24,071 nucleotides of DNA from the NCBI GenBank assembly GCA_016212295.1, contig JACRGO010000212.1, positions 1 through 24,071 of the forward strand, in the 5' to 3' direction. The stretch comes from Nitrospinota bacterium. Lineage in GTDB: Bacteria > Nitrospinota > Nitrospinia > JACRGO01. The position numbers and the translations under genes were made by a program. Positions 5,866 to 18,476 of the stretch are shown in pieces. The notes below the pieces were generated by a model, which was not told the DNA's origin, did not search any database, and saw only the letters and a list, made by a program, of their open reading frames with translations. Within the stretch, counting starts at the first letter, position 1, and each line of letters begins with the position of its first letter.

Positions 5866-6381
5866 TCAAGTTCTCCCTTCCACCGCCTTGAGAATACCCT
5901 TCAGGATGGCCCAGGGAGAGGGAGGGCAACCGTGGATGTAGACGTCCACGGGCAAGACCTCCCCTACCCCGCCCAGGGAGGCGTAACTCTTCCCGAAAAT
6001 CCCGCCGTCATATCCGCAGTCCCCGACCGCAACCACCAGCTTTGGAGGGGGAGCGGCGGCGTATGTCCTCCTTAGCGCTATCTCCATGTTGATCGACACC
6101 GGCCCTGTAACCAGCAGCATATCAGCGAACCTGGGAGAGGCGGTGAAGTGAATTCCGAAGCGTTCGCAATCATAAAAGGAATTGTTGACCGCGTGGATCT
6201 CCAGCTCGCACCCGTTGCATGATCCGGCGTCCACCATCCTTATGGTAAGGCTTCGCTGGAAACGGCCCAGTATCGCGCTTTCCAACTGTTTCCCCACTAC
6301 TTCGATCCGCTCCTCAACCTCTGACGGCAGGGGCTCGGTAACAATGCCGGTCCGGAATATCTGATGCAGGATTCTTAACAT
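5866..6381 (-). CDS. Ehr complex NuoB/HyfI-like iron-sulfur subunit
   Basis: A 171-residue homologue of the small subunit of group 4 [NiFe] hydrogenases and complex I NuoB. All four cysteines for the proximal N2-type [4Fe-4S] cluster are present: SCNGCE (Cys55, Cys58), VGDCGYDGG (Cys122) and HGCPPSP (Cys152). It should sit at the interface of the peripheral arm and the membrane domain and pass electrons to the active-site subunit. It is the last gene of the operon, downstream of the HyfG-like gene. The 69-bp gap before it is filled with a heptad-like repeat (GGGTTTAAGGTTTAGGGTTT), and no ribosome binding site is visible before ATG 6381. The operon assignment comes from strand, order and family. 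Confidence 0.88.
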   Translation of the reverse strand: MLRILHQIFRTGIVTEPLPSEVEERIEVVGKQLESAILGRFQRSLTIRMVDAGSCNGCELEIHAVNNSFYDCERFGIHFTASPRFADMLLVTGPVSINMEIALRRTYAAAPPPKLVVAVGDCGYDGGIFGKSYASLGGVGEVLPVDVYIHGCPPSPWAILKGILKAVEGRT

Positions 6382-6450: not shown

Positions 6451-8010
6451 TTATAGATCATGCCCTGAATAGGACTGGTTAAAGCTCTTGTTGCACAGGG
6501 GGAAGTCAGGGACCATGTTGCCCTTCGCCGCTTGCTCGAGTCCCAGCCAGTTGACTGATGACGGGTCGCGTACCATGCAACGGTTGATCTTGCCGTCCGG
6601 TCCGGCCTGTACCCACGTTATTATCTCGCCTCGCCAACCTTCCACGGCGGCAAACCCCTTCGCGTCCGGCAACGGCGCCGGACACGGAATTTCAATGCCG
6701 CCTTCCGGCAGACTCTTCACGATATCCTGTATGAAACAAATTGACTCGCGGATTTCCTCCACCCTCACCCACGCCCTGGCGTGCGCGTCGCCGGAATGAA
6801 GGACCGGGACCCTTGGGACCAGCTTGTGGTATGGGGGAAACGGTCTCCGCAAACGGGCGTCCATTTTTTGTCCGCTGGCCCGCGCTACAATCCCCACCAC
6901 CCCGAATTCCTCCGCCTGGGCCGGAGAAAATACGCCTGTGTCATATAACCGGTCCCCAAGCGAGGGATGGTCGTCGTAAATCCTCACAAGCCTTTCAAAT
7001 TCCCGTGAAAGCCCTTCCATCTCGGAAAGGATGGCGCGCCGCGCCTCGGAATCCATATCAGCCGATACGCCGCCAGGACGGACCTTGTCCATGAGGAGCC
7101 TGTGTCCGAAGAGGGCCTTGTTGGCCCTCAGCACAATCTCGCGCAAGCGTCCCATCTGATAATACATGAAGGCAAAGGCCACGTCGTTGCAGATGGCCCC
7201 GATGTCGCCCAAGTGATTGGCGATCCGTTCCCGCTCTAGAAAAAGCGCGCGGAGCCAAGAGGCCCGCTCCGGCGGCTCAAGGCCGGACGCCGACTCCACC
7301 GCCTGGGAATAGGCAAGCGCATGGGCAACGGTCGTGTCCCCTGAAATTCTTCCGGCAAGCCTCGCTCCTTCTTCCCACGAAAGCGACTCAAAGCACTTCT
7401 CGATCCCCTTATGCGCGTACCCAAGCCTTTCCTCCAGATTCAAAACAGCTTCCCCGACCGCCTGGAACCGGAAGTGTCCCGGCTCTATGATCCCGGCATG
7501 CACTGGTCCCACCGGGATTTCATACGCCCCCTCCCCTTTTGTCTTGATCCAGTGATATTCCCCGGACGCCCTTTGCAAAGGATGTGTCCCGTCAAAGGAT
7601 TTCCGCAAGGGGTAGGCGTCCTTGGGCCAGTCCTCGAACTTGATCCAGGGGCGCGCATCCGGATGCCCTTCGGCTGTCAAGCCCATGAGACTCATTATCT
7701 GGCGCTCGAATCTCCATGCGGGTATGAATATCCGCGCCAGACTGGGGAAGAAGGCGGGGGCCTCTTTTTCGAGTTCCAGCCTGGCCAAAACGTACTCATT
7801 TCCAAGGCAAAACACGCAGCACAGGACAAAGCCACGGCCAAAGGGGGCCTCGTCAACTCCCCATTGCGCGGCCAGCCTGCCCTTTGCGGCCTTTATTGCC
7901 TGGGCCGCATGGATAAAACGTTCCCTGGAAATGGTGAAGGCGTCAATTCCACGCTGGGAGTTGTCCTTTAAGGCCCCTTCAATGATTAACAATTCTGAAA
8001 GTGTTTTCAT
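6451..8010 (-). CDS. Ehr complex large subunit (NuoC-NuoD / HyfG-like fusion) without Ni-Fe ligands
   Basis: The protein has about 519 residues from ATG 8010; an in-frame TTG at 8025 would add five. The N-terminal 150 residues are NuoC-like (FPSLARIFIPAWRFERQI). The rest is the NuoD/hydrogenase large-subunit fold, with GPVHAGIIEPGHFRF and DFPLCNKSFN. The hydrogenase motif RxCGxC is RISGDT here (about 221-226), so both cysteines are changed to Ser and Thr. The C-terminal CxxC is replaced by SYSG (about 513-516). None of the four nickel ligands remains, as in the energy-converting-hydrogenase-related (Ehr) complexes. It cannot be a hydrogenase; its substrate could be a quinone-like or other unknown partner. 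The frame is intact and well conserved, so this is a functional divergence, not decay. The start is uncertain: only AGGTGG about 15 bases upstream of the ATG is available. Confidence 0.88.
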   Translation of the reverse strand: MKTLSELLIIEGALKDNSQRGIDAFTISRERFIHAAQAIKAAKGRLAAQWGVDEAPFGRGFVLCCVFCLGNEYVLARLELEKEAPAFFPSLARIFIPAWRFERQIMSLMGLTAEGHPDARPWIKFEDWPKDAYPLRKSFDGTHPLQRASGEYHWIKTKGEGAYEIPVGPVHAGIIEPGHFRFQAVGEAVLNLEERLGYAHKGIEKCFESLSWEEGARLAGRISGDTTVAHALAYSQAVESASGLEPPERASWLRALFLERERIANHLGDIGAICNDVAFAFMYYQMGRLREIVLRANKALFGHRLLMDKVRPGGVSADMDSEARRAILSEMEGLSREFERLVRIYDDHPSLGDRLYDTGVFSPAQAEEFGVVGIVARASGQKMDARLRRPFPPYHKLVPRVPVLHSGDAHARAWVRVEEIRESICFIQDIVKSLPEGGIEIPCPAPLPDAKGFAAVEGWRGEIITWVQAGPDGKINRCMVRDPSSVNWLGLEQAAKGNMVPDFPLCNKSFNQSYSGHDL

Positions 8011-8025
8011 ATAAAAATAGTTCAA

Positions 8026-8119: not shown

Positions 8120-9568
8120 TCATATCAAAAGCTCCACCGCCTTTTGGAACCATTGGTCCAGGAACCGGGGCATGTAAAGTCCAACCGCAAGCGCCAGGGC
8201 GATATGCAGGATCACCGGCACATGCGCGGCCTTTATCGCGCCTTGCCAGGCCGGGACTTGGCCGAAGACCATCGGCTGGACCCTTCGCAGCAGGGCAGCG
8301 AAGGCCACCGCTATTCCCAAAAGGAAGAAGGGTGCCATCAACGGAGCGTCCTTCATGGTCGCGGTGAGGACCAGGAACTCGCTCACGAACACCCCGAAGG
8401 GCGGCATTCCGGCTATTGCCATGACCCCGAACATAAGGCCCCATCCAACCATCGGGTTTCCCGCTATCAGCCCCTTGATCCTGGACATCTCCTGGGTCCC
8501 GTGCATCTGAGAGGCGTGGCCCACGGTATAAAAGATAGATGACTTGACCAGGCTGTGGACCAGCATGTGGTAGAGTCCGCCGAAGGTGGCGATGGGTCCT
8601 CCCAATCCAAAGGCGAAGGTGGCGATTCCCATGTGTTCGATTGAGGAATAAGCGAACATCCTCTTTATGTCCTTTTGCCGCAGGAGGGAAAAGGCCGCCA
8701 CCAGAATGGAAAGAATCCCGAAGCCCATCATGATCCTCCCGGCCCAGTTGGACCCCATGGCCCCATTCACCAGCACCTTTACCCGCACCAGGGCGTAAAG
8801 GGCCACGTTGAGGAGAAGTCCGGATAAGACCGCTGAAATCGGGGTAGGCCCCTCGCTGTGCGCGTCAGGCAGCCAGTTATGCAAAGGGACAAGGCCAACC
8901 TTTGTGCCGTAACCCACCATGAAGAATATGAAGGCAAGGGAGAGGACCGTCGGCTCAAGGTGGCCGCTCATGGCGTTAAGATTGGTCCACAGCAGCGCCT
9001 GCGAGCCTTCGCCCAATACCTTTTCAGCGGCGAAATAAAGAAGCACTGTGCCGAACAGGGCCAGGGCAATGCCCACTCCGCACAGGATGAAATATTTCCA
9101 AGCCGCCTCGACCGAGGACGGGGTCCGGTACAGGGAAACAAGGAGCACGGTGGACAAGGTCGCAAGCTCCATTGAAATCCAGAGCACCCCGACGTTATTT
9201 GTCAACAGCGCCAGCAGCATGGCGAAGATAAAAAGCTGGAACATGGCGTGGTAGAAGCGCATCCCCCGATGCCCTATCTTCCCGCGCGCGCGCTCAAATC
9301 TCATGTACTTTCGGCTGAATATGGCGGTGGTCATGGAAACGAAACTCGTCAGCACCACCAGGTACACGTTAAAGGGGTCAACAAAAAAATAACCTCCGCC
9401 CACCGACATGGGCCCTTCGGAATAGACCTGGAAAGCCAGGGACGTCCCGGCCAGGAAGGAGGCGAAAGAGCCTATTATGTTGATCTCGTGCGCGAAGCGC
9501 CGGTCGCCAACCACTGCCAAAATAAACGTGGCCGCCACCGAGGCGCCAAGCAAAATCCATATAGACAT
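8120..9568 (-). CDS. Ehr complex HyfF/NuoN-like antiporter subunit
   Basis: A 482-residue polytopic membrane protein of the Mrp-antiporter/NuoLMN superfamily. Family landmarks are ISMELATLST (Glu134) and GYGTKVGLVPLHNWLPDAHS (Lys223 in the broken helix). The second lysine position is Asn254 in LSGLLLNVALYALVR, which is usual for HyfF-type rather than NuoM-type proteins. It should form a proton or sodium half-channel. The start ATG 9568 overlaps the stop of the HyfE-like gene (TGATG), and the upstream AGGAGG is a strong ribosome binding site. It is cotranscribed with its neighbours. Confidence 0.9.
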   Translation of the reverse strand: MSIWILLGASVAATFILAVVGDRRFAHEINIIGSFASFLAGTSLAFQVYSEGPMSVGGGYFFVDPFNVYLVVLTSFVSMTTAIFSRKYMRFERARGKIGHRGMRFYHAMFQLFIFAMLLALLTNNVGVLWISMELATLSTVLLVSLYRTPSSVEAAWKYFILCGVGIALALFGTVLLYFAAEKVLGEGSQALLWTNLNAMSGHLEPTVLSLAFIFFMVGYGTKVGLVPLHNWLPDAHSEGPTPISAVLSGLLLNVALYALVRVKVLVNGAMGSNWAGRIMMGFGILSILVAAFSLLRQKDIKRMFAYSSIEHMGIATFAFGLGGPIATFGGLYHMLVHSLVKSSIFYTVGHASQMHGTQEMSRIKGLIAGNPMVGWGLMFGVMAIAGMPPFGVFVSEFLVLTATMKDAPLMAPFFLLGIAVAFAALLRRVQPMVFGQVPAWQGAIKAAHVPVILHIALALAVGLYMPRFLDQWFQKAVELLI

Positions 9569-10233
9569 CAGTCGCCCTCCTTGAGTTTTTCCATGTCCTT
9601 AAGATCCAGGCTGTCGAAGGTGGTGCGGATATGGAACATGAAGATGCCGAAAATAAAGGCCGCTATGAGGATATCCAGCGCGACCCCCAGTTCCACCACA
9701 AGGGGCATGCCGTATGTGGCGCTTGTGGCGGCGAAGAAGAGGCCGTTTTCCATGGAGAGCAGGCCGATGATCTGGGTCACCGCCTTCTTCCTGGTGATCA
9801 TCATAAGGAAACTCAATAGGACCGTTGCAAGGGCCACTGCCAGGGTTGACCGCGTCACAAGCGTGGAAAGCTCCCGGATTGGAGAGGTGAGGTGGTAGGA
9901 AAAAATCACCAGCGCTATCCCGATGAACATGGTGGCCGGGATATTGACCACCGCTTCCACCTCCTTGCGGATGTTCATCCTGTGCACAAGCTCGAACAGG
10001 ATATACGGCAAGGCCGCCACCTTCAGAAGGAGCGTCAGAAACGAGGATATGTACAAGTGGTTCTGCCCTGCCACATAGGCCACGACAGCGGTGCTGATGG
10101 AAAGGAAAAGGCCCTGCAAGGCGAAGATCTGCAGCAGCCCTATGATTCTCCTCTGGGCCAGGAGCCCGAAGGTTGTAAGGAGGATCAGCGCCGCTAGCAG
10201 ACTGTTGATTTGCGCAGGCAGATTATTCGACAT
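9568..10233 (-). CDS. Ehr complex HyfE/NuoK-like membrane subunit
   Basis: A 221-residue membrane protein starting MSNNLPAQINSLLAALILL. The C-terminal half carries the NuoK-like signature (TQIIGLLSMENGLFFAATS, then VVELGVALDILIAAF), with the buried glutamates of proton-translocating NuoK relatives. A longer open frame reaches 10500, but ATG 10233 is chosen because it overlaps the HyfC stop in TGATG, the same junction used elsewhere in this operon, and gives the family length. It links the HyfC-like quinone-chamber subunit to the antiporter-like subunits. Confidence 0.88.
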   Translation of the reverse strand: MSNNLPAQINSLLAALILLTTFGLLAQRRIIGLLQIFALQGLFLSISTAVVAYVAGQNHLYISSFLTLLLKVAALPYILFELVHRMNIRKEVEAVVNIPATMFIGIALVIFSYHLTSPIRELSTLVTRSTLAVALATVLLSFLMMITRKKAVTQIIGLLSMENGLFFAATSATYGMPLVVELGVALDILIAAFIFGIFMFHIRTTFDSLDLKDMEKLKEGD

Positions 10234-11177
10234 CACGTCTCCAGCATGAAGTAGGAAAGCATCCCAAGGGTGGCGAAGAGAAAGGCGCTTCCCAGGAATT
10301 CCGGGACCCTGAATATGCGCATTTTCGCCATCATTGTTTCGATCAACACGATCCCGATTCCAGCGGCCATGAGCTTCATGGCAAGGAACCCCAAGGCAAC
10401 GGCAAGTGATTTGGCGTCCATTGTGGAAGCTATGCCCCAGGGATAGGAAAAGGAAAATCCCAGTGAAACGATAAGAAGCAGCTTCATCATCTTTGCCCAT
10501 TCCATGAGGGCGAGGTGGCGTCCGGAATATTCCAGGATCATGGCCTCATGCAGCATGGTGAGTTCCAGATGGGTCGCGGGATTGTCCACCGGCACCCTGC
10601 CGGTTTCCGCCAGGGCGATGAAAATGAAGGCCAGGCACGAGAAGGCCAGGGACGGCCTCAGGAGAAAATTCCCTTCCTGCATCACGCGGACGATCTGGGA
10701 AAGGGAGGTGGACCGGCAAATAAGCGACACCGTGAAAACGGACATGAGAATGGCCGGCTCCGCCATTGAGGCCACCATCATTTCGCGGCTCGAACCCATG
10801 CCGCCGAAGGCCGTGCCGACGTCCATGCCCGCGAGGGCGGTGAAGAACCTGGCTATCCCGAAAAGGGCCACCAGCGCTATTACGTCCGCAGTCGCGGTGA
10901 GGGGAAGCTCCGTTGACACCATTGGAATGATGGCCCCCGCCAGGAGAGTGGAGCCGAACACCACGTAAGGCGTGAAACGAAACACCCACGAGGCGTTCTC
11001 GGCCAACAGCACGTCCTTGTAACAAAGCTTCAGCAGGTCGCGGAAGGGTTGAAGGACCCCTGCGGAGGTCCGGCCCTGGGACCAGCACTTGAGCATCCTG
11101 ATCCAGCCTATAAGCAACGGCGCGCCCAGGAGGACGATAAGGATTTTAAATGCTTCCATGAGGATTTGAGTTGCCAT
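10233..11177 (-). CDS. Ehr complex HyfC/NuoH-like membrane subunit
   Basis: A 314-residue polytopic protein of the NuoH / HycD / HyfC family. Conserved blocks are FGGMGSSRE (124-132) and AETGRVPVDNPATHLELT with HEAMILEYSG (190-219), which line the interface with the peripheral arm. It anchors the NuoB/NuoD-like subunits to the membrane and starts the proton path. The start is ATG 11177. No Shine-Dalgarno is seen because the preceding gap (11178-11313) is replaced by tandem repeats. Its stop overlaps the HyfE start by one base. Confidence 0.9.
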   Translation of the reverse strand: MATQILMEAFKILIVLLGAPLLIGWIRMLKCWSQGRTSAGVLQPFRDLLKLCYKDVLLAENASWVFRFTPYVVFGSTLLAGAIIPMVSTELPLTATADVIALVALFGIARFFTALAGMDVGTAFGGMGSSREMMVASMAEPAILMSVFTVSLICRSTSLSQIVRVMQEGNFLLRPSLAFSCLAFIFIALAETGRVPVDNPATHLELTMLHEAMILEYSGRHLALMEWAKMMKLLLIVSLGFSFSYPWGIASTMDAKSLAVALGFLAMKLMAAGIGIVLIETMMAKMRIFRVPEFLGSAFLFATLGMLSYFMLET

Positions 11178-11183
11178 GAATAA

Positions 11184-11314
11184 AGGGTTAGGGGCTAAAG
11201 GTTAAAGGTTCAGGGTTCCAAGGTTCAGGGTTCAGGGTTCAAGGTTCAAGGTTCAAGGTTCAAGGTTCAATGACTTAATGACTTAATGACTTAATGACTC
11301 AATGACCAATGACT
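11184..11314. repeat. Heptad (GGTTCAR) and octad (TGACTTAA) tandem tract
   Basis: About eleven degenerate 7-base units of the GGTTCAA / GGTTCAG type run from 11184 to 11270. About five 8-base TGACTTAA / TGACTCAA units follow, up to the stop of the HyfB-like gene. The tract fills the whole gap between the HyfB- and HyfC-like genes. Confidence 0.85.
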
Positions 11315-13359
11315 CACAAAGCAAAAACCAGCAATATAATAATGGTCATGAATGAATAAACCAGGTATATGTGTATGCGTCCGTGCTGCAGTTTTCCAGC
11401 CATCCTGGCAAGAATAAAGGTGTAATCCGCCAAGGGTGAATAAATCGCCCCCCATATACGGTCCCTTATCCTCAAATGGTAGTTGATCCCCGCTGGAAAG
11501 GCCGGATGCGCCGTCCTTGCCGTTGCCCCGGAAGACTCACGTATATGAAAAAGAAAGCCGAAGATGGTCCTGAGTGGCATGGAAAAGGACGCGGCGTTAT
11601 ATTGCATCCTCGGCGTCATTTTTTCAAAACCGCAATCCCATATAGGAACCCGGTGTATCTTGCCGCTTCGCGCGTGGAGGACCAAATAAGAAACCACCAC
11701 AACCAGGAGAATGCCCAGGAACACAATGGGGGCGGAATAAGAGGCCCGCTCAGCGGCTATGGGAGTCAGCCAGAGCCATCCGAACTTCCCGGCGGAGGTG
11801 GCGATCGCGCCGCCGGCCAATTGGGACGGCACGCTGTCCATCCATCGCAGAACCATGGTGGGAAATATCCCCAAAAGCAGGCACGCCAAGGCCGCCATGC
11901 CCATGCCCAGCCTCATTGGTATATCAGCCTCATGGGCATTCAGCTTCCTCTCCCCTCTCCAATGCCCAAGGAAAGTGACCCCGAAGGCCTTAACGAAACA
12001 GGTGGCGGCAAGGACCCCGGTAAGGGCCAGGAGCGCCGCGCCAAGGGGGATGATGAGGTTCATCAATCTCCCAGGCAACGCGGGCGACAAAAGAAACGCC
12101 TGAAAGGTCAGCCACTCCGAAACGAACCCGTTGAATGGAGGCAGGGCCGAGATGGACACGCACCCCACGAGAAAAAACACGGAGGTCCAAGGCATGCAAT
12201 GGATCAGTCCTCCCATTTTTTCCATGTTCCTTTCCCCGGCGCCGTGAAGCACGGCCCCAGCGCCCATGAACAGGAGTCCCTTGAACATGGCGTGGTTGAG
12301 GATGTGGTAGAGTCCGGCCGTCATGGCAAGGGCCGCCGGCAGAGGCATTCCGTGAAAGGTGAATATCATGGAAAGGCCGACGCAGATAAGTATCACTCCA
12401 ATGTTTTCAACCGAGGAATATGCAAGCAGGCGTTTGAGGTCCTTTTGCATCAAGGCGTAAAGTATCCCCATCACGGCGGACACAAGCCCGGCCAGCAGGA
12501 CGATCCCTCCCCACCACCAATACGCCACGTGGAGCAGATCAAAGGAAAACCGCAAAATACCGTACACGGCTGTTTTCAACATCACCCCGCTCATCAGGGC
12601 CGAAACGTTGCTTGGGGCAACGGGGTGCGCCTCAGGCAGCCACACGTGAAGAGGGACAACCCCTGCCTTTGCGCCGAATCCCAGGAAGGACAATAAAAAC
12701 GCGATCGAGGCCCAAAGAGGCGGCACATGGGCCTCGCGCATGGCGGAGAAGGTATAGCCGTTAAAGTCCTCCAGCCCTGTCGCGAACCCGGCCAGTATTC
12801 CGAAGGAAAGCAAAATCGCCACCGCCCCGACGTGGGCCATGAGCAGATAAAGAAACCCCGCCCTGCGGTTTTCAGTTTTGTCGTCTTCAAAGAGGACCAG
12901 GAAGTAAGAGGATATAGCCATGAGTTCCCACGACACCAGGAAGATGAAGGCGTCATCGGCCAGAATAACCAGGAACATCCCGGCCATGAAGAGGGCGTAA
13001 AAAATTATCAAGGGGAGCGCCGGCCTTTCCGCCAAAAGGCCCTTCACATATCCCACGGAATAAACAGACACGAAAAGCCCAAGCAGCGCGATCACGGTGA
13101 GGAAAAATCCGGCAAGGGGATCGAGCCGGAAATGAAAGGGGAGTTCTGGAAGTCCCAGTGGGACTACTAATGCCTGGGCGGTCTCGTTCGATACGGTTGA
13201 AATTCCCGCCCATAGAATGGGCAGCATAACCGCGGCCATGGCCCAAAAGGAAAAATGGATCATGGCCTTGGGCCGGCGGCGGAGAAAAGGCGCGGCCGCG
13301 GCTATTCCCGGCAGGAGCGAAACGGCAAGGACGGCGAAATGAATTTGAGAGGAGGCCAT
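11314..13359 (-). CDS. Ehr complex HyfB/NuoL-like antiporter subunit
   Basis: A 681-residue polytopic membrane protein, close to the usual HyfB length. The antiporter landmarks are complete: LVSWELMAISSYFLVLFE (Glu145), GAKAGVVPLHVWLPEAHPV (Lys231) and LMSGVMLKTAVYGILR (Lys262). The C-terminal extension has the HyfB-type block IWDCGFEKMTPRMQYNAASF. It is predicted to translocate protons or sodium, driven by redox chemistry in the peripheral arm. The start ATG 13359 overlaps the stop of the HTH-EIIA gene (TGATG). It is followed by a repeat-filled gap before the HyfC-like gene. Confidence 0.92.
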   Translation of the reverse strand: MASSQIHFAVLAVSLLPGIAAAAPFLRRRPKAMIHFSFWAMAAVMLPILWAGISTVSNETAQALVVPLGLPELPFHFRLDPLAGFFLTVIALLGLFVSVYSVGYVKGLLAERPALPLIIFYALFMAGMFLVILADDAFIFLVSWELMAISSYFLVLFEDDKTENRRAGFLYLLMAHVGAVAILLSFGILAGFATGLEDFNGYTFSAMREAHVPPLWASIAFLLSFLGFGAKAGVVPLHVWLPEAHPVAPSNVSALMSGVMLKTAVYGILRFSFDLLHVAYWWWGGIVLLAGLVSAVMGILYALMQKDLKRLLAYSSVENIGVILICVGLSMIFTFHGMPLPAALAMTAGLYHILNHAMFKGLLFMGAGAVLHGAGERNMEKMGGLIHCMPWTSVFFLVGCVSISALPPFNGFVSEWLTFQAFLLSPALPGRLMNLIIPLGAALLALTGVLAATCFVKAFGVTFLGHWRGERKLNAHEADIPMRLGMGMAALACLLLGIFPTMVLRWMDSVPSQLAGGAIATSAGKFGWLWLTPIAAERASYSAPIVFLGILLVVVVSYLVLHARSGKIHRVPIWDCGFEKMTPRMQYNAASFSMPLRTIFGFLFHIRESSGATARTAHPAFPAGINYHLRIRDRIWGAIYSPLADYTFILARMAGKLQHGRIHIYLVYSFMTIIILLVFAL

Positions 13360-14048
13360 CAGCGCGCCCCCGCCAAGGTCTTCTCTTCTGCCTGGAGAAA
13401 GAGATTATAAATGTCCTCGCGCAATGGGACTTCCCGAAGTCCGGCCAAGACATCTTCCTCCCTCAGAAGTCTCAGGAGCTTGGATTGGATCTTCAAGTAC
13501 CTTTCCTCGTTCTTGGGAAAGATGAAAAAAAGGAGGTTGGCGTCCTTGCCGTCCACTGCCTGGAAGTAAACCGGCTTTTCCAGAAAACAGAGGCATATCG
13601 AGGAAAGGGGCGACGGGAATTCGTTGAATCGCCTTGGGTGCGGCAGGGCCACCCCGTGCCCGATGCCGGTGGAGCAAAGCCGCTCCCTTTCCATGATGGC
13701 GTTATATAATCTTTCCAGTTCGGAGGGATTTAGCCCGGGTTTCATGACAGCCAGGGACTCACGGATAACGGCCTCCTTGGAGTCTCCGCCTATCCTGTAA
13801 AAAACCCCTCCCCGTTGGAGAAACCTGGAGATGGATATGCCCTCCTCGGAGTCGTCCAGTTCCTTGCCCTCATTCGCCGCGGCGGCGGACTCCTTGGCGT
13901 CCTCCAGCCACGAAATTATCTCTTCTCTCTTGAATCTCCATTGGCCTCCCACGCGGATCGAGGGTATGGCCTCGTTTTTCAGGAAACGGTAGATGGTCTT
14001 GTCTGATACTTTAAGAAGTTTTGCTACGTCTTTTACGGAAAGGTCCAT
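13359..14048 (-). CDS. HTH-EIIA (PTS) fusion regulator, first gene of the Ehr operon
   Basis: A 229-residue protein. Residues 4-50 are an excisionase/MerR-type helix-turn-helix (SVKDVAKLLKVSDKTIYRFL, then VGGQWRFKREEIISWLED). A linker of about 20 residues is rich in Ala, Glu and Asp. Residues about 75-225 are a PTS EIIA type-2 (fructose/Ntr) domain with the active-site pattern GIGHGVALPHPR; His137 is the expected phosphorylated residue. No EIIB or EIIC is near, so a regulatory role like PtsN is likely. It is translationally joined to the HyfB-like gene by a one-base overlap and stands directly behind the operon promoter. It probably controls its own operon; the direction of control is not visible. 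Confidence 0.87.
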   Translation of the reverse strand: MDLSVKDVAKLLKVSDKTIYRFLKNEAIPSIRVGGQWRFKREEIISWLEDAKESAAAANEGKELDDSEEGISISRFLQRGGVFYRIGGDSKEAVIRESLAVMKPGLNPSELERLYNAIMERERLCSTGIGHGVALPHPRRFNEFPSPLSSICLCFLEKPVYFQAVDGKDANLLFFIFPKNEERYLKIQSKLLRLLREEDVLAGLREVPLREDIYNLFLQAEEKTLAGAR

Positions 14049-14400: not shown

Positions 14401-14703
14401 ATAGTAGGAATAGGGGACAGGTGTCAGGGTGCAGGAAGCACTTGGTTTAACTCAATAAGCGTTGTGCGCTCAAGGCTCATCATGACTCATGACAACTGCT
14501 CCCTGGCCCCTGATACCTGACTTCCTTTTTTGCCCGTCCTATGCATCCGCCGCATCCCCTTCGCCCTTCGCCTCTTTTCGCCCTTTGCCAACTAAAGGCG
14601 ATTCTTGCCCCAAGAAGTTTTTTCTTGCCTGTTTTTGTGCTTTTTCTTATACTATGAGCGACACGACTTCGTGAATTAACAAGAAATAATGGAGGATGGA
14701 ATT
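14401..14703. other. Low-complexity spacer with repeat words
   Basis: No gene is seen. The spacer contains GGGGACAGGTGTCAGGGTGCAGG, CCCCTGATACCTGACTTCC (compare 20149-20168) and GCCCTTCGCCTCTTTTC (14563-14579). The last is one of two direct copies flanking the antitoxin-toxin pair. Confidence 0.55.
14563..14579 (+). repeat. 17-bp direct repeat, left of VapBC
   Basis: GCCCTTCGCCTCTTTTC recurs exactly at 15434-15450. The two copies bracket the antitoxin and toxin genes, which could reflect insertion or excision of the cassette, or simply a common repeat word. Confidence 0.6.
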
Positions 14704-14949
14704 ATGAGAACTGCTTCTAATTACAGGGAAGATTTGATAAACCTGACAAAAGAGCTGCCCTCAAGCAAGGTCAGAGAATTATGGAATTTTGCCCGTTTCC
14801 TTAAAATCAAGGACTCAGGCTTCAGTTACAAGAACGTTATTCACAGCGATGAATACGTAAAAAAAATGAGGGAGGAAGAAGGCAGGAAGTTGAAGTCCGG
14901 CAAAAATTTTGTCGAAGAGCTTCTGGAATGGCAAAAATCAGACTTTTAG
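14704..14949 (+). CDS. Antitoxin-like protein paired with VapC
   Basis: An 81-residue protein starting MRTASNYREDLINLT. ATG 14704 is chosen because GGAGGA lies 7-8 bases upstream; an in-frame ATG at 14689 precedes that site. The N-terminal half contains a helical segment LPSSKVRELWNFARFLKIKD. The C-terminal half (FVEELLEWQKSDF) is charged and probably the toxin-binding tail. The fold resembles small DUF2281-like antitoxins, but I cannot name the family with certainty. The stop lies 22 bases inside the PIN toxin gene, the typical antitoxin-first overlapping layout. It probably autoregulates with the toxin. Confidence 0.65.
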   Translation: MRTASNYREDLINLTKELPSSKVRELWNFARFLKIKDSGFSYKNVIHSDEYVKKMREEEGRKLKSGKNFVEELLEWQKSDF

Positions 14950-15314
14950 TGGATACCGACATTATCATTGATCAGCTAAAGGGAATAAAGTCGGCAAAGG
15001 AGCTTTTCCGTTCCCCTGACTTTGTCCTTTATTGCTCCATCCTCAGCAAAAAGGAGCTTATTTCCAAGCCAGGACTGGATGCTTCCGAAAGGAAAAAAAT
15101 CGCGAAGTTGATGAACACCTTGAAGGTCTTGAAGATTGATGAAAACATCCTGGCTAAATACTCATTCCTTGTTAAAAAATACGGAGAAAATCAAAATTTT
15201 TTCGCTGATTACATCATAGCCGCAACGGCGTGGGCAAAAGACCTGCCACTATTAACAAGGAATATAAGCCATTTCAAAAAAATAAAAGAAATTGTCCTTG
15301 CGCCTACTTACTGA
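14928..15314 (+). CDS. VapC-type PIN-domain ribonuclease toxin
   Basis: A 128-residue PIN-domain protein. Acidic active-site positions are visible: LLVDTDIII (Asp9), SKKELI (Glu43) and FFADYIIAATA (Asp94). The final region reads LLTRNISHF, keeping the Asn of the T-x-N motif but with His where an acidic residue is common. It is predicted to cleave RNA and to be neutralised by the upstream gene, with which it overlaps by 22 bases. No frameshift is seen. The two genes lie between broken defence genes, in a block bounded by 17-bp direct repeats. Confidence 0.82.
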   Translation: MAKIRLLVDTDIIIDQLKGIKSAKELFRSPDFVLYCSILSKKELISKPGLDASERKKIAKLMNTLKVLKIDENILAKYSFLVKKYGENQNFFADYIIAATAWAKDLPLLTRNISHFKKIKEIVLAPTY

Positions 15315-15461: not shown

Positions 15462-18400
15462 TTAGCCGCCATTATGCTCGTCAAACAAATTGCCGTTTAA
15501 ATCCGGCGGCGCGGGAGGCTTGCGCCTCTTATCAGGAACAGCAGGCAGTTCGCCTGCCTGGAAACAGTCTCCGGCCGCGACGGCCTCCAGGAGTATAGCC
15601 TGCTCCGGGTAGCCCGCGACCGTGGCTTCAAGGACCCAAAGGAGTTCGAGCAGCTCTGTTGTGAACCGGCTGGTCCAGCGCTCAGGGCGGATATCGTCCA
15701 GGGGCGAGGATTTCTTGCCGGACCCTTTCCTCATGCGATACTTGAGCCACGATTGCACGGCCTTGAGGCCGGACACCTCGAACTCAAAAACTTCTCGCGC
15801 GACCGGGGCGAACTCGCCGTCGCCGACGCGGAGCGTCCGGGTCTCGTCGTTATATTCAAACGTTTCAGGGCAGCAGTCCGCGTGGCCTGGGACGGCCTTT
15901 ATGCACTCGGCCGCGCCGCGCGGAACATGGCCGCGTTGTTTGCCCTTGGGGACGAAGCGTTCGCCGTAGGTGTGCAGCCACAACAGCCGCGCCCCCGCGT
16001 CCCCAGTTCCTCCGCGAAGCGCTTAGTGAAAGCAGGCTGCGCCAGCACTCCATAAACATACGCAAGAAAATCCTCCGGGGAAAGCTTCTTGAGTTTGTAT
16101 GTCTTGCATAGCTGTTCCAACAGGCCAGGCAGGATGTTAGCTTCCGAAGCGTCAGCGGAGCGATAGAGGGGTACAGTGTCCTTTGCGCCGCGCCCTGAAA
16201 AATGGTCTAGGTCTGGGACCGCCGCGCACGCTACAAGCGCCGGACCTGCGCCAAGGAATTTGGTCAACAAACTTGTCAGATAAACCTGCCGCTCGCCGTG
16301 GGCGCGCCAGAGATCAGGGCGTAAGTAGTCGCCCAATCGATTGTCGGCGAATATCCACTGCCGGTCGAACGAGCGATAGGCATAGCGTTCGATACGCGGG
16401 ACTGGAGCGTTGCGTGGAGACCTGGCGATAGGTGTTTGCGCATCGCCCTTATTTAAAAGCTGCGAGCACTTAAAATCTATTTTTCGATCGCGTGTTTCTT
16501 TGAATGCCATGGCCTGATTCGCGGAAGCAAGAAGCTCACGCCATCGTTGTTTCAATGTCTCGGCATCGGGACAAATGGGCCATGTGCGCTTGAATTGCGC
16601 TCCCGAATGCTGCCACGGCATGATATCTGTCAATAGCGGCCAGTCAAAGTAATCGCCCTTGCCTGAAGGCCGGAAGGGGGCCTGCCAGTCCTTGGGACAA
16701 TCCTGCCATTTCACTTTCTTGAAACCGCTGATGGCGTCAAGCGCGGCGAGCTTGGCCTCGCGCGTCCCCTCAATGCGGGCATAGTGGACCTTGGCCGGCT
16801 TGTCCTTCTTCACTTTCTTCGCGCGGACAGCCACCGCTATGGCCACTGGCGTCTGTATGGCAAAGACATTATCACTCTTGCGAGTGCCGCGTCCCTCGCC
16901 GCCTAGGTCAAGAATCCATACCTCGTCGCACTGGCGGCGCATATGCTCGCGCATCCCGCTGAAGGCGTCGCCGTCAAGATAGCTCGACGCGCTGATGAAA
17001 CTAACCACCCCGGGTCCGCTGGCGGTTGAGTGCTCGAAGACCTTCCACAACGCCCAGCGCCAAAAATAGACATACAGGTTATAGAGATTCTTCACATGAA
17101 CGCCATGGCCGGTTGCCGTGGCCGGGTCAAGAAAATCACGAAAGATAGCTGGAACAATTTGTGATTTCCCATTTTTCTTAATTGTCCGGCCGCCCTTGCC
17201 GTCATCGCCCCACCTGACCCATCCGCCGGTGCGGGACTGGTTCCCGCACGTGGCGGCTTCGTGCCTGTCATAAGGAGGATTGCCCAGGCAGACGATGACC
17301 GGCACGTTGCTCTTTACCTTGAGAGCCTTGGCGTGCTGGTCGGCTATGGGCCGCAGAAAGAGCGGCAATTGCTGAGGCTCGGCATTTGGACTTTCCAGCG
17401 TGTCGGTCAGGTAGACATGCGCGCCGTCCTTGGGCAGCGCCGCTCCCCGGTCCCGCAGGGCGCGGCTTACGCGGAGTTCGGCTACGGCGTAAGGCCCGGC
17501 CATGAGTTCAAAGCCGTAAAGATTATCGGCAAGCGCGGCGGCCTGGCCGGCGCCCGCGCCTTGTTCGGCCTTGACGCGGCCCAGGGCGTGTTCTATGACG
17601 CCAAGCAGGTATGTGCCGGTGCCTGCCGCCGGGTCCAGCGTCACAACGCCTGGGTCGGCAAAGCCCATTGGTTTATTCAGGTGGTTGACAAGCAGATCAT
17701 CAATCAGGCGCACCTGGGCGCGGACGACCTCGACCGGGGTATAGTAGACCCCGGCGTCCTTGCGCAGCTTGGGGTCGTAGACCGCGAGAAAGTCCTCGTA
17801 AAAATAAAGCCAGGGGTCTTCCGGGCCGGTAAGGGTCGAGGGCGGCACGACGGCGATAACGCGCAGAAGGAGGTCGAGCGAGGCGGCCATCTCGCAGCAT
17901 CCTGCACAATGGGGCCAGCAGGGCGGCTAAGCCCTGGAGGTCGATCTTGCCCTTGCGGCCCGCTGGAATGATCGGCTCCCAGGAAAGGAAGTCCCGCAAA
18001 AGGCGCTCGATTGCGCGGGCGTCCTCGGCCGTTGCGGCCTGGCCGCCGCTGGTCGCGACGTCGCCGGAAACGCGGACAATTTTGCCCACAAGCTCGCCGT
18101 CACGGTAGAGCGCCCATTCGTTGCCGTCGGAGTAAAGGATATTAGGAATCGCGGAGAAACGCTTCCACTGGCCGCGGTTGTGGCCCTTGAAGCGCGAGTG
18201 GTTAGCGCCTACGCCAGGGGCCTTTAACTCGACGTAACCCGCCAGGAGTCTGTTGAGGTGAACAGCATAGTCAGGGCGTCCAAGACGGCCCGGCAGCGGG
18301 GTCTCGCCGGTGCACACGACGTTCCAGTCCAGGACGCGGGCGGCGTCGGCCATGAATCGCTCGAAAGGTCCGCGCAACTGGTCTTCCGGCCCGCCGGGGG

Positions 18401-18476
18401 TGAGCTGGCTCATCTTGGCCGTGACCGCTTCGGCGAAGCTCTGCAGGGCTTCATGGATAGTGATGCTCTTTTTCAT
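15462..18476 (-). pseudogene. Type ISP-like nuclease-N6-methyltransferase gene, broken in two places
   Basis: Three minus-strand frames form one gene. The first (from ATG 18476) has a PD-(D/E)xK-like nuclease site, GRPDY (66-70) and YVELKAPG (81-88), and reads sensibly to APLCRMLRDG near 17895. The second frame carries DPWLYFYEDF, GVYYTP, the SAM motif LDPAAGTGTY, GNPPYDRH, and a type ISP C-terminal region (EDFLAYVYGVL, FTKRFAEEL). Between the two, the family has roughly 100-150 residues that are absent here, so an internal deletion changed the frame. The second break is near 16000: after EELGTRG the protein continues as LWLHTYGERFVP in the third frame (to 15462), explained by loss of one G in a GGGG run. 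All catalytic motifs survive, but no intact polypeptide can be made. The second break alone could be a sequencing error. Confidence 0.78.

Follow-up and report, generated by a model that had tools for sequence, protein, structure and literature searches.

The window, i.e. the whole 24,071-nucleotide stretch of the Nitrospinota contig JACRGO010000212.1 that was analysed, carries all six genes ehrABCDLS of an Ech-hydrogenase-related (Ehr) complex, and the operon very probably encodes a member of this family of non-hydrogenases. Since the large subunit EhrL cannot hold a NiFe centre, the complex is expected neither to make nor to use H2. According to the explanation that we prefer, and to which we assign a probability of about 75%, a soluble donor would deliver electrons to the single cluster of EhrS, from which they would pass to a small acceptor and thus drive ion pumping. 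The genes concerned are given below; the name of the gene set comes from Methylacidiphilum (PMC6688271), the letters EhrA (NuoL-like) and EhrC (HyfE-like) follow PMC7894505, and the letters of other membrane subunits are our own assignment.

5866..6381, minus strand: ehrS, NuoB/HyfI-type small subunit of 171 aa (Pfam Oxidored_q6; aligned with HycG, HyfI and NuoB)
6451..8025, minus strand: ehrL, HycE/NuoCD-type large subunit with fused 30-kDa and 49-kDa domains (Pfam, HycE alignment, tree)
8120..9568, minus strand: ehrD, HyfF/NuoN-M-like antiporter-type subunit (NCBIfam hydrogenase 4 subunit F, 759.7 bits against a cut-off of 543)
9568..10233, minus strand: ehrC, HyfE-like membrane subunit (NCBIfam hydrogenase 4 membrane subunit, E=4e-23, below cut-off); start taken at ATG 10233, the open frame continuing to 10500
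10233..11177, minus strand: ehrB, NuoH/HyfC-like membrane anchor (Pfam NADHdh, E=2.6e-35)
11314..13359, minus strand: ehrA, HyfB-like antiporter-type subunit with a C-terminal extension (NCBIfam hydrogenase 4 subunit B, 815.2 bits against 667)
13359..14048, minus strand: regulator gene, excisionase-type HTH plus PTS EIIA(Ntr)-like domain (Pfam HTH_17, PTS_EIIA_2)

The open frame of ehrL begins with TTG at 8025, from which residues are numbered here (524 aa), while the internal ATG at 8010 gives exactly 6451-8010 and a product of 519 aa. The protein matches Pfam Complex1_30kDa and Complex1_49kDa, gives a sub-threshold score of 22.8 bits with the Pfam nickel hydrogenase model, and has E. coli HycE (7z0s_E) as its best PDB match in phmmer (E=1.2e-59). 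In this pairing RISGDT (226-231) stands opposite RVCGIC and NQSYSG (516-521) opposite DPCYSC, and both motifs fell in the same columns when the protein was aligned by MAFFT with HycE, HyfG and NuoCD of E. coli. Replacement of all four Ni cysteines, which an earlier note had read as RISGDT and SYSG, was thus borne out by both alignments, the four positions being occupied by S228, T231, S518 and G521. Three segments of EhrL are of importance for what follows:

7474..7509, minus strand: GPVHAGIIEPGH (residues 173-184), the beta1-beta2 loop, with E181 at the position of MbhL Glu21 and Nqo4 His38
7333..7350, minus strand: RISGDT (residues 226-231), the former RxCGxC, with S228 and T231 at Ni positions
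6463..6474, minus strand: SYSG (residues 518-521), the former C-terminal CxxC, three residues before the protein end

It is known that HycE loses its C-terminal tail during maturation, the cut falling at the point where EhrL ends. In the MAFFT alignment the EhrL chain terminates at SYSGHDL, HycE and HyfG are longer by about 30 residues, and a maturation tail of this type is therefore lacking. A fused 30+49 kDa large subunit and the EPGHFR loop are shared with HycE and HyfG, which also provide the best structural match, whereas EhrL differs from them in having neither the CxxC motifs nor the tail. The predicted fold superimposes on HycE over 457 aligned residues (span 7-521; Z 35.8, rmsd 3.0 A); the single-chain AlphaFold model has a confident core, with pLDDT below 50 at residues 148-209, 228-231 and 497-524, i.e. 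in the pocket loops.

Conservation was estimated over 77 related loci, which belong mostly to Nitrospirota, with some from Geobacter and other Proteobacteria. S228 is present in 76 of them and G229 and D230 in all 77, position 231 is occupied by T, S or A (66, 10 and 1 loci, respectively), and S518, Y519, S520 and G521 were each found in 76/76. D230, invariant here, is new relative to RxCGxC. A wider set of relatives tolerates S, A, V or G at the first Ni position, T, S or A at the second, and S or N at the third; the Gly-Asp pair is kept throughout, with Gly-Glu of Meiothermus as the sole exception. From this column conservation the Ehr signature GP[VI]HA[GS]xIEPGHFR, R[IV]xGDx[TS]VA[HY], NKSF[ND]xxY[SAC]GxDL-stop was derived, to which a few rows have single exceptions. 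Neither a displaced Ni-ligand cysteine nor a CxxC pair or any other fully conserved cysteine was found in EhrL across the 77 loci and the alignments; none of the commonest cysteine columns of the 49-kDa part (279, 390, 483 and 511) is free from substitution among the relatives. The loss of all Ni ligands might in principle speak for a decayed hydrogenase, but this explanation, to which we leave a negligible probability, is refuted by the open frames, by the near-invariance of the motifs and by the fact that several phyla share the operon in intact form. Since the motifs are near-invariant in 77 loci, the replacement of the Ni site is fixed and selected, and is neither a sequencing error nor decay; the frame is indeed otherwise intact and conserved, as was claimed before.

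A maximum-likelihood tree was built from 39 large subunits, including rows from Nitrospira and Geobacter and not the published Ehr reference sequences. In this tree 27 Ehr rows, that of the window among them, form a clade (100/100) apart from the NuoD clade (100/100), and the cysteine-bearing group 4 hydrogenases fall outside both; three of these (L138-L140, RVCGICSTSH) come from the class to which the window belongs. HycE and HyfG are the nearest cysteine-bearing relatives of Ehr (96/96). Because of their long branches, the Meiothermus row and a second Variovorax row are less certainly placed. The window EhrL is sister to a clade of Nitrospirota and Geobacter, which includes one other genome of the window's class (G075), while four further genomes of this class have a more distant Ehr with identity near 50%. 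Within the phylum EhrL is confined to 6 of 77 genomes, which together with the split within the class points to patchy inheritance or transfer. Nitrospirota and Geobacter have the six genes in this same order, as do other members of the window's class and plasmids of Pseudomonadota, the plasmid-borne operons belonging to soil and root-associated members. Ehr genes are common in environmental bacteria.

The Ehr class, which Coppi (2005) and Marreiros (2013) are said to have defined, is not new, since the complex has already been published in Geobacter, Nitrospira and Methylacidiphilum. Several papers on these bacteria concur with the statement of the earlier note that Ehr complexes lacking Ni ligands were known: Ehr with missing Ni sites was found in about half of Nitrospirales genomes (PMC12342949), and the CxxC is missing in Ehr of comammox Nitrospira (PMC10284858). 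For other Ehr types there is an FDH-Ehr hypothesis (PMC6349859). The complex of the window is a further member of this known family, having the same six gene types, a Ni-ligand-free large subunit related to group 4, and NuoH-like and antiporter-type membrane subunits. It differs in its host, which is outside the Nitrospirota/Geobacter clade, with the window copy branching just outside, and in the HTH-EIIA regulator gene, present in only some relatives.

The small subunit has one predicted [4Fe-4S] cluster (C55-x2-C58, C122, C152) with spacing as in HycG and HyfI. This strict pattern is matched by 70 of 73 homologues, the other three being two slight variants with all four cysteines and one copy ended by its contig. 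Charged pump motifs are retained in 65 to 68 of 69 EhrD homologues and in 45 to 57 of 57 homologues of EhrA. No gene for a ferredoxin of NuoI/HyfH type was registered in or beside the operon, either in the window, in related loci or in annotated plasmid operons; a ferredoxin-motif scan of related loci gave just four scattered and unrelated candidates, and the window operon contains no genes for HycB/HyfA, HyfD, HyfH, HycI or formate dehydrogenase.

Based on this anatomy one can assume that EhrABCDLS works, probably and perhaps reversibly, as a redox-driven ion pump and not as a hydrogenase, which is what the earlier note had proposed and what finds support at the sequence level. All steps of the mechanism beyond the anatomy are those that we infer. 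Since a NuoI/HyfH-type subunit is lacking, a soluble low-potential donor, for instance ferredoxin, would dock directly on EhrS. From its single cluster electrons would then reach a small acceptor located in the chamber formed by EhrL, EhrS and EhrB, and a proton-coupled movement of the E181 loop may drive translocation of H+ or Na+ by EhrA and EhrD. In this host the acceptor would most likely be menaquinone, though the assignment of a quinone to this role is tentative and falls somewhat short of even odds. This route, in which electrons of a donor pass a single cluster and end on menaquinone or on some other small acceptor, is favoured because of the pocket features together with the menaquinone, rnf-like and hydrogenase-type genes of the host. 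The host genome has menaquinone genes of the futalosine-pathway type and a set of frames resembling an rnf operon (RnfB-, RnfA-, RnfE-, RnfD- and RnfC-like; contig C48 of G000, L152, 6918-12570), which makes ferredoxin and menaquinone pools plausible, as well as HypD and several matches of the [NiFe] hydrogenase type. The clusters obtained from flanking ORFs consisted essentially of shadow frames belonging to the operon or of unrelated genes that occur sparsely, and revealed no conserved neighbour that might serve as donor or supply a substrate, which counts against our preferred explanation.

The pocket itself was compared with those of solved complexes. In Pyrococcus MBH Glu21 and His75 conduct protons to NiFe, Glu21 sitting where complex I has His38 (PMC11228991). 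This Glu is kept in EhrL as E181 (76/76), and H235 at the position of His75 is kept in most rows, being replaced by Tyr or Phe in several Pseudomonadota; the four-Cys proximal cluster is also shared with MBH, whereas the NiFe site is not. Complex I (NuoD/NuoB) resembles Ehr in the fold, in the loss of four Ni cysteines and in the NuoH and antiporter-type subunits, but its quinone ligands are absent in EhrL, which has Glu at the Nqo4 His38 position and Gly at that of Tyr87, again at variance with the donor-to-quinone route. Ehr is further distinguished from complex I by its separate clade, by an operon devoid of NuoEFG and NuoI, and by the CxxC of the EhrS cluster motif in place of the adjacent CC of NuoB. 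The Ni site is altered also in MBS, likewise a solved relative, in which the Cys loop is shortened, the cluster has three Cys ligands with one iron lacking such a ligand, and two of the four Ni cysteines are retained (PMC7684303). One could therefore imagine that the proximal cluster of Ehr serves, as in this archaeal complex, for sulfane sulfur reduction, but four cysteines with HycG/HyfI spacing in EhrS and the lack of any Ni cysteine in EhrL already make it very improbable. An MbhN/MbsN-type ferredoxin subunit, present in both MBH and MBS, is lacking in Ehr. Thus, judging from the residues compared, the EhrL pocket is unlike all three solved types.

D230 and the pair N512-K513 are specific for Ehr and show no or almost no variation. 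Together with the retention of the Mbh-type Glu in the absence of quinone ligands, this leaves some room for a substrate oxidoreductase instead of a quinone reductase: a small polar substrate (formate-like, a carbonyl or another anion) would be held by D230, K513, E181 and the Ser/Thr hydroxyls, and the EhrS cluster would take or give its electrons. In line with this, Ehr proteins of Geobacter (GSU0739-0745) are more abundant on formate than in hydrogen-containing conditions (PMC7894505), although this effect is a correlation. However, the operon is not accompanied by any dehydrogenase or substrate gene, and the side chains concerned lie in low-confidence loops of the model; we consider such an activity rather unlikely, while keeping it as a live alternative. 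To a similarly limited extent one may suppose that the invariant Gly-Asp of R[IV]xGDx[TS]VA[HY], Lys513 and the Mbh Glu build a distinct active site of neither NiFe, quinone nor MBS type, with a reaction new to the complex I superfamily that is served by a single Fe-S cluster with no ferredoxin subunit, the cluster having been lost in distant branches. It is this Ehr-specific conserved pocket, combined with the single-cluster architecture, that could become important. The signature and the small subunit count sharpen the question of which soluble donor reduces EhrS and what D230, K513 and E181 bind.

Another live alternative is suggested by a distant relative. The plasmid of Allomeiothermus silvanus (the Meiothermus relative, L142:9010-11159) keeps the Ehr gene set with an altered pocket motif in EhrL (GGE-PVAH), and the cysteines of the cluster are no longer present in its small subunit (NTGLDDTE, GNEAIGG, GSPARP), so that a version of Ehr without redox chemistry may exist. 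Given also that the antiporter-type subunits are well conserved and that a role in pH homeostasis was proposed for Methylacidiphilum ehrABCDLS (PMC6688271), the complex might be mainly a pH- or Na+-homeostasis antiporter with EhrL and EhrS as a structural or redox-sensing cap. This is improbable, since a pure cap would need neither the cluster cysteines nor the EhrL pocket that are invariant or almost so in the main clade, and the redox-driven pump is preferred. In the accounts of Ehr consulted here (among them PMC12342949, PMC10284858, PMC7894505, PMC6688271 and PMC6349859) we saw neither the signature described above, nor the retention of the Mbh Glu without complex I quinone ligands, nor a Meiothermus Ehr devoid of Fe-S ligands.

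NuoD or NuoH outside Ehr was not found in the window's own assembly; this absence counts in favour of the preferred explanation but is not firm, because the assembly is 90.5% complete and a genus mate has NuoD. Of the six genomes of the class with EhrL five also carry NuoD, and the idea that Ehr replaces complex I across the class was therefore rejected.

The regulator gene overlaps ehrA by 1 base, and its EIIA(Ntr)-like domain retains the TGIGHGVALPHP site. In 16 of 51 relatives it lies next to the operon in the same direction, and in three it is divergent, which suggests PTS-linked control of Ehr. Three Geobacter loci (L060, L062, L064) have, near the Ehr operon, one more antiporter gene of HyfB-like type, which is accompanied by an HTH-EIIA-like regulator of its own.

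Several database annotations of Ehr large subunits are misleading. The one on an Azospirillum plasmid (L126:11743-13308) is labelled 'nickel-dependent hydrogenase large subunit', yet it lacks all four Ni ligands, and further relatives bear the label 'NADH-quinone oxidoreductase subunit C'. By gene names, rv0082-rv0087 of M. tuberculosis, called a putative [NiFe] hydrogenase, looks like the Ehr gene set. A Variovorax plasmid (L125:1201-3416) bears, next to its six-gene operon, a second and divergent Ehr-like pair, in which the small subunit has two N-terminal 4Fe-4S ferredoxin motifs and the large subunit has VGDS and SYCG at the Ni positions.

Elsewhere in the window, a Type ISP restriction-modification protein (N6_Mtase and Type_ISP_C; 15899-18476, minus strand) is apparently split over two overlapping frames and is probably broken or frameshifted. 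At 14689-15314 on the plus strand a small ORF overlaps a downstream PIN-domain protein, the two likely forming a VapBC-type toxin-antitoxin pair.
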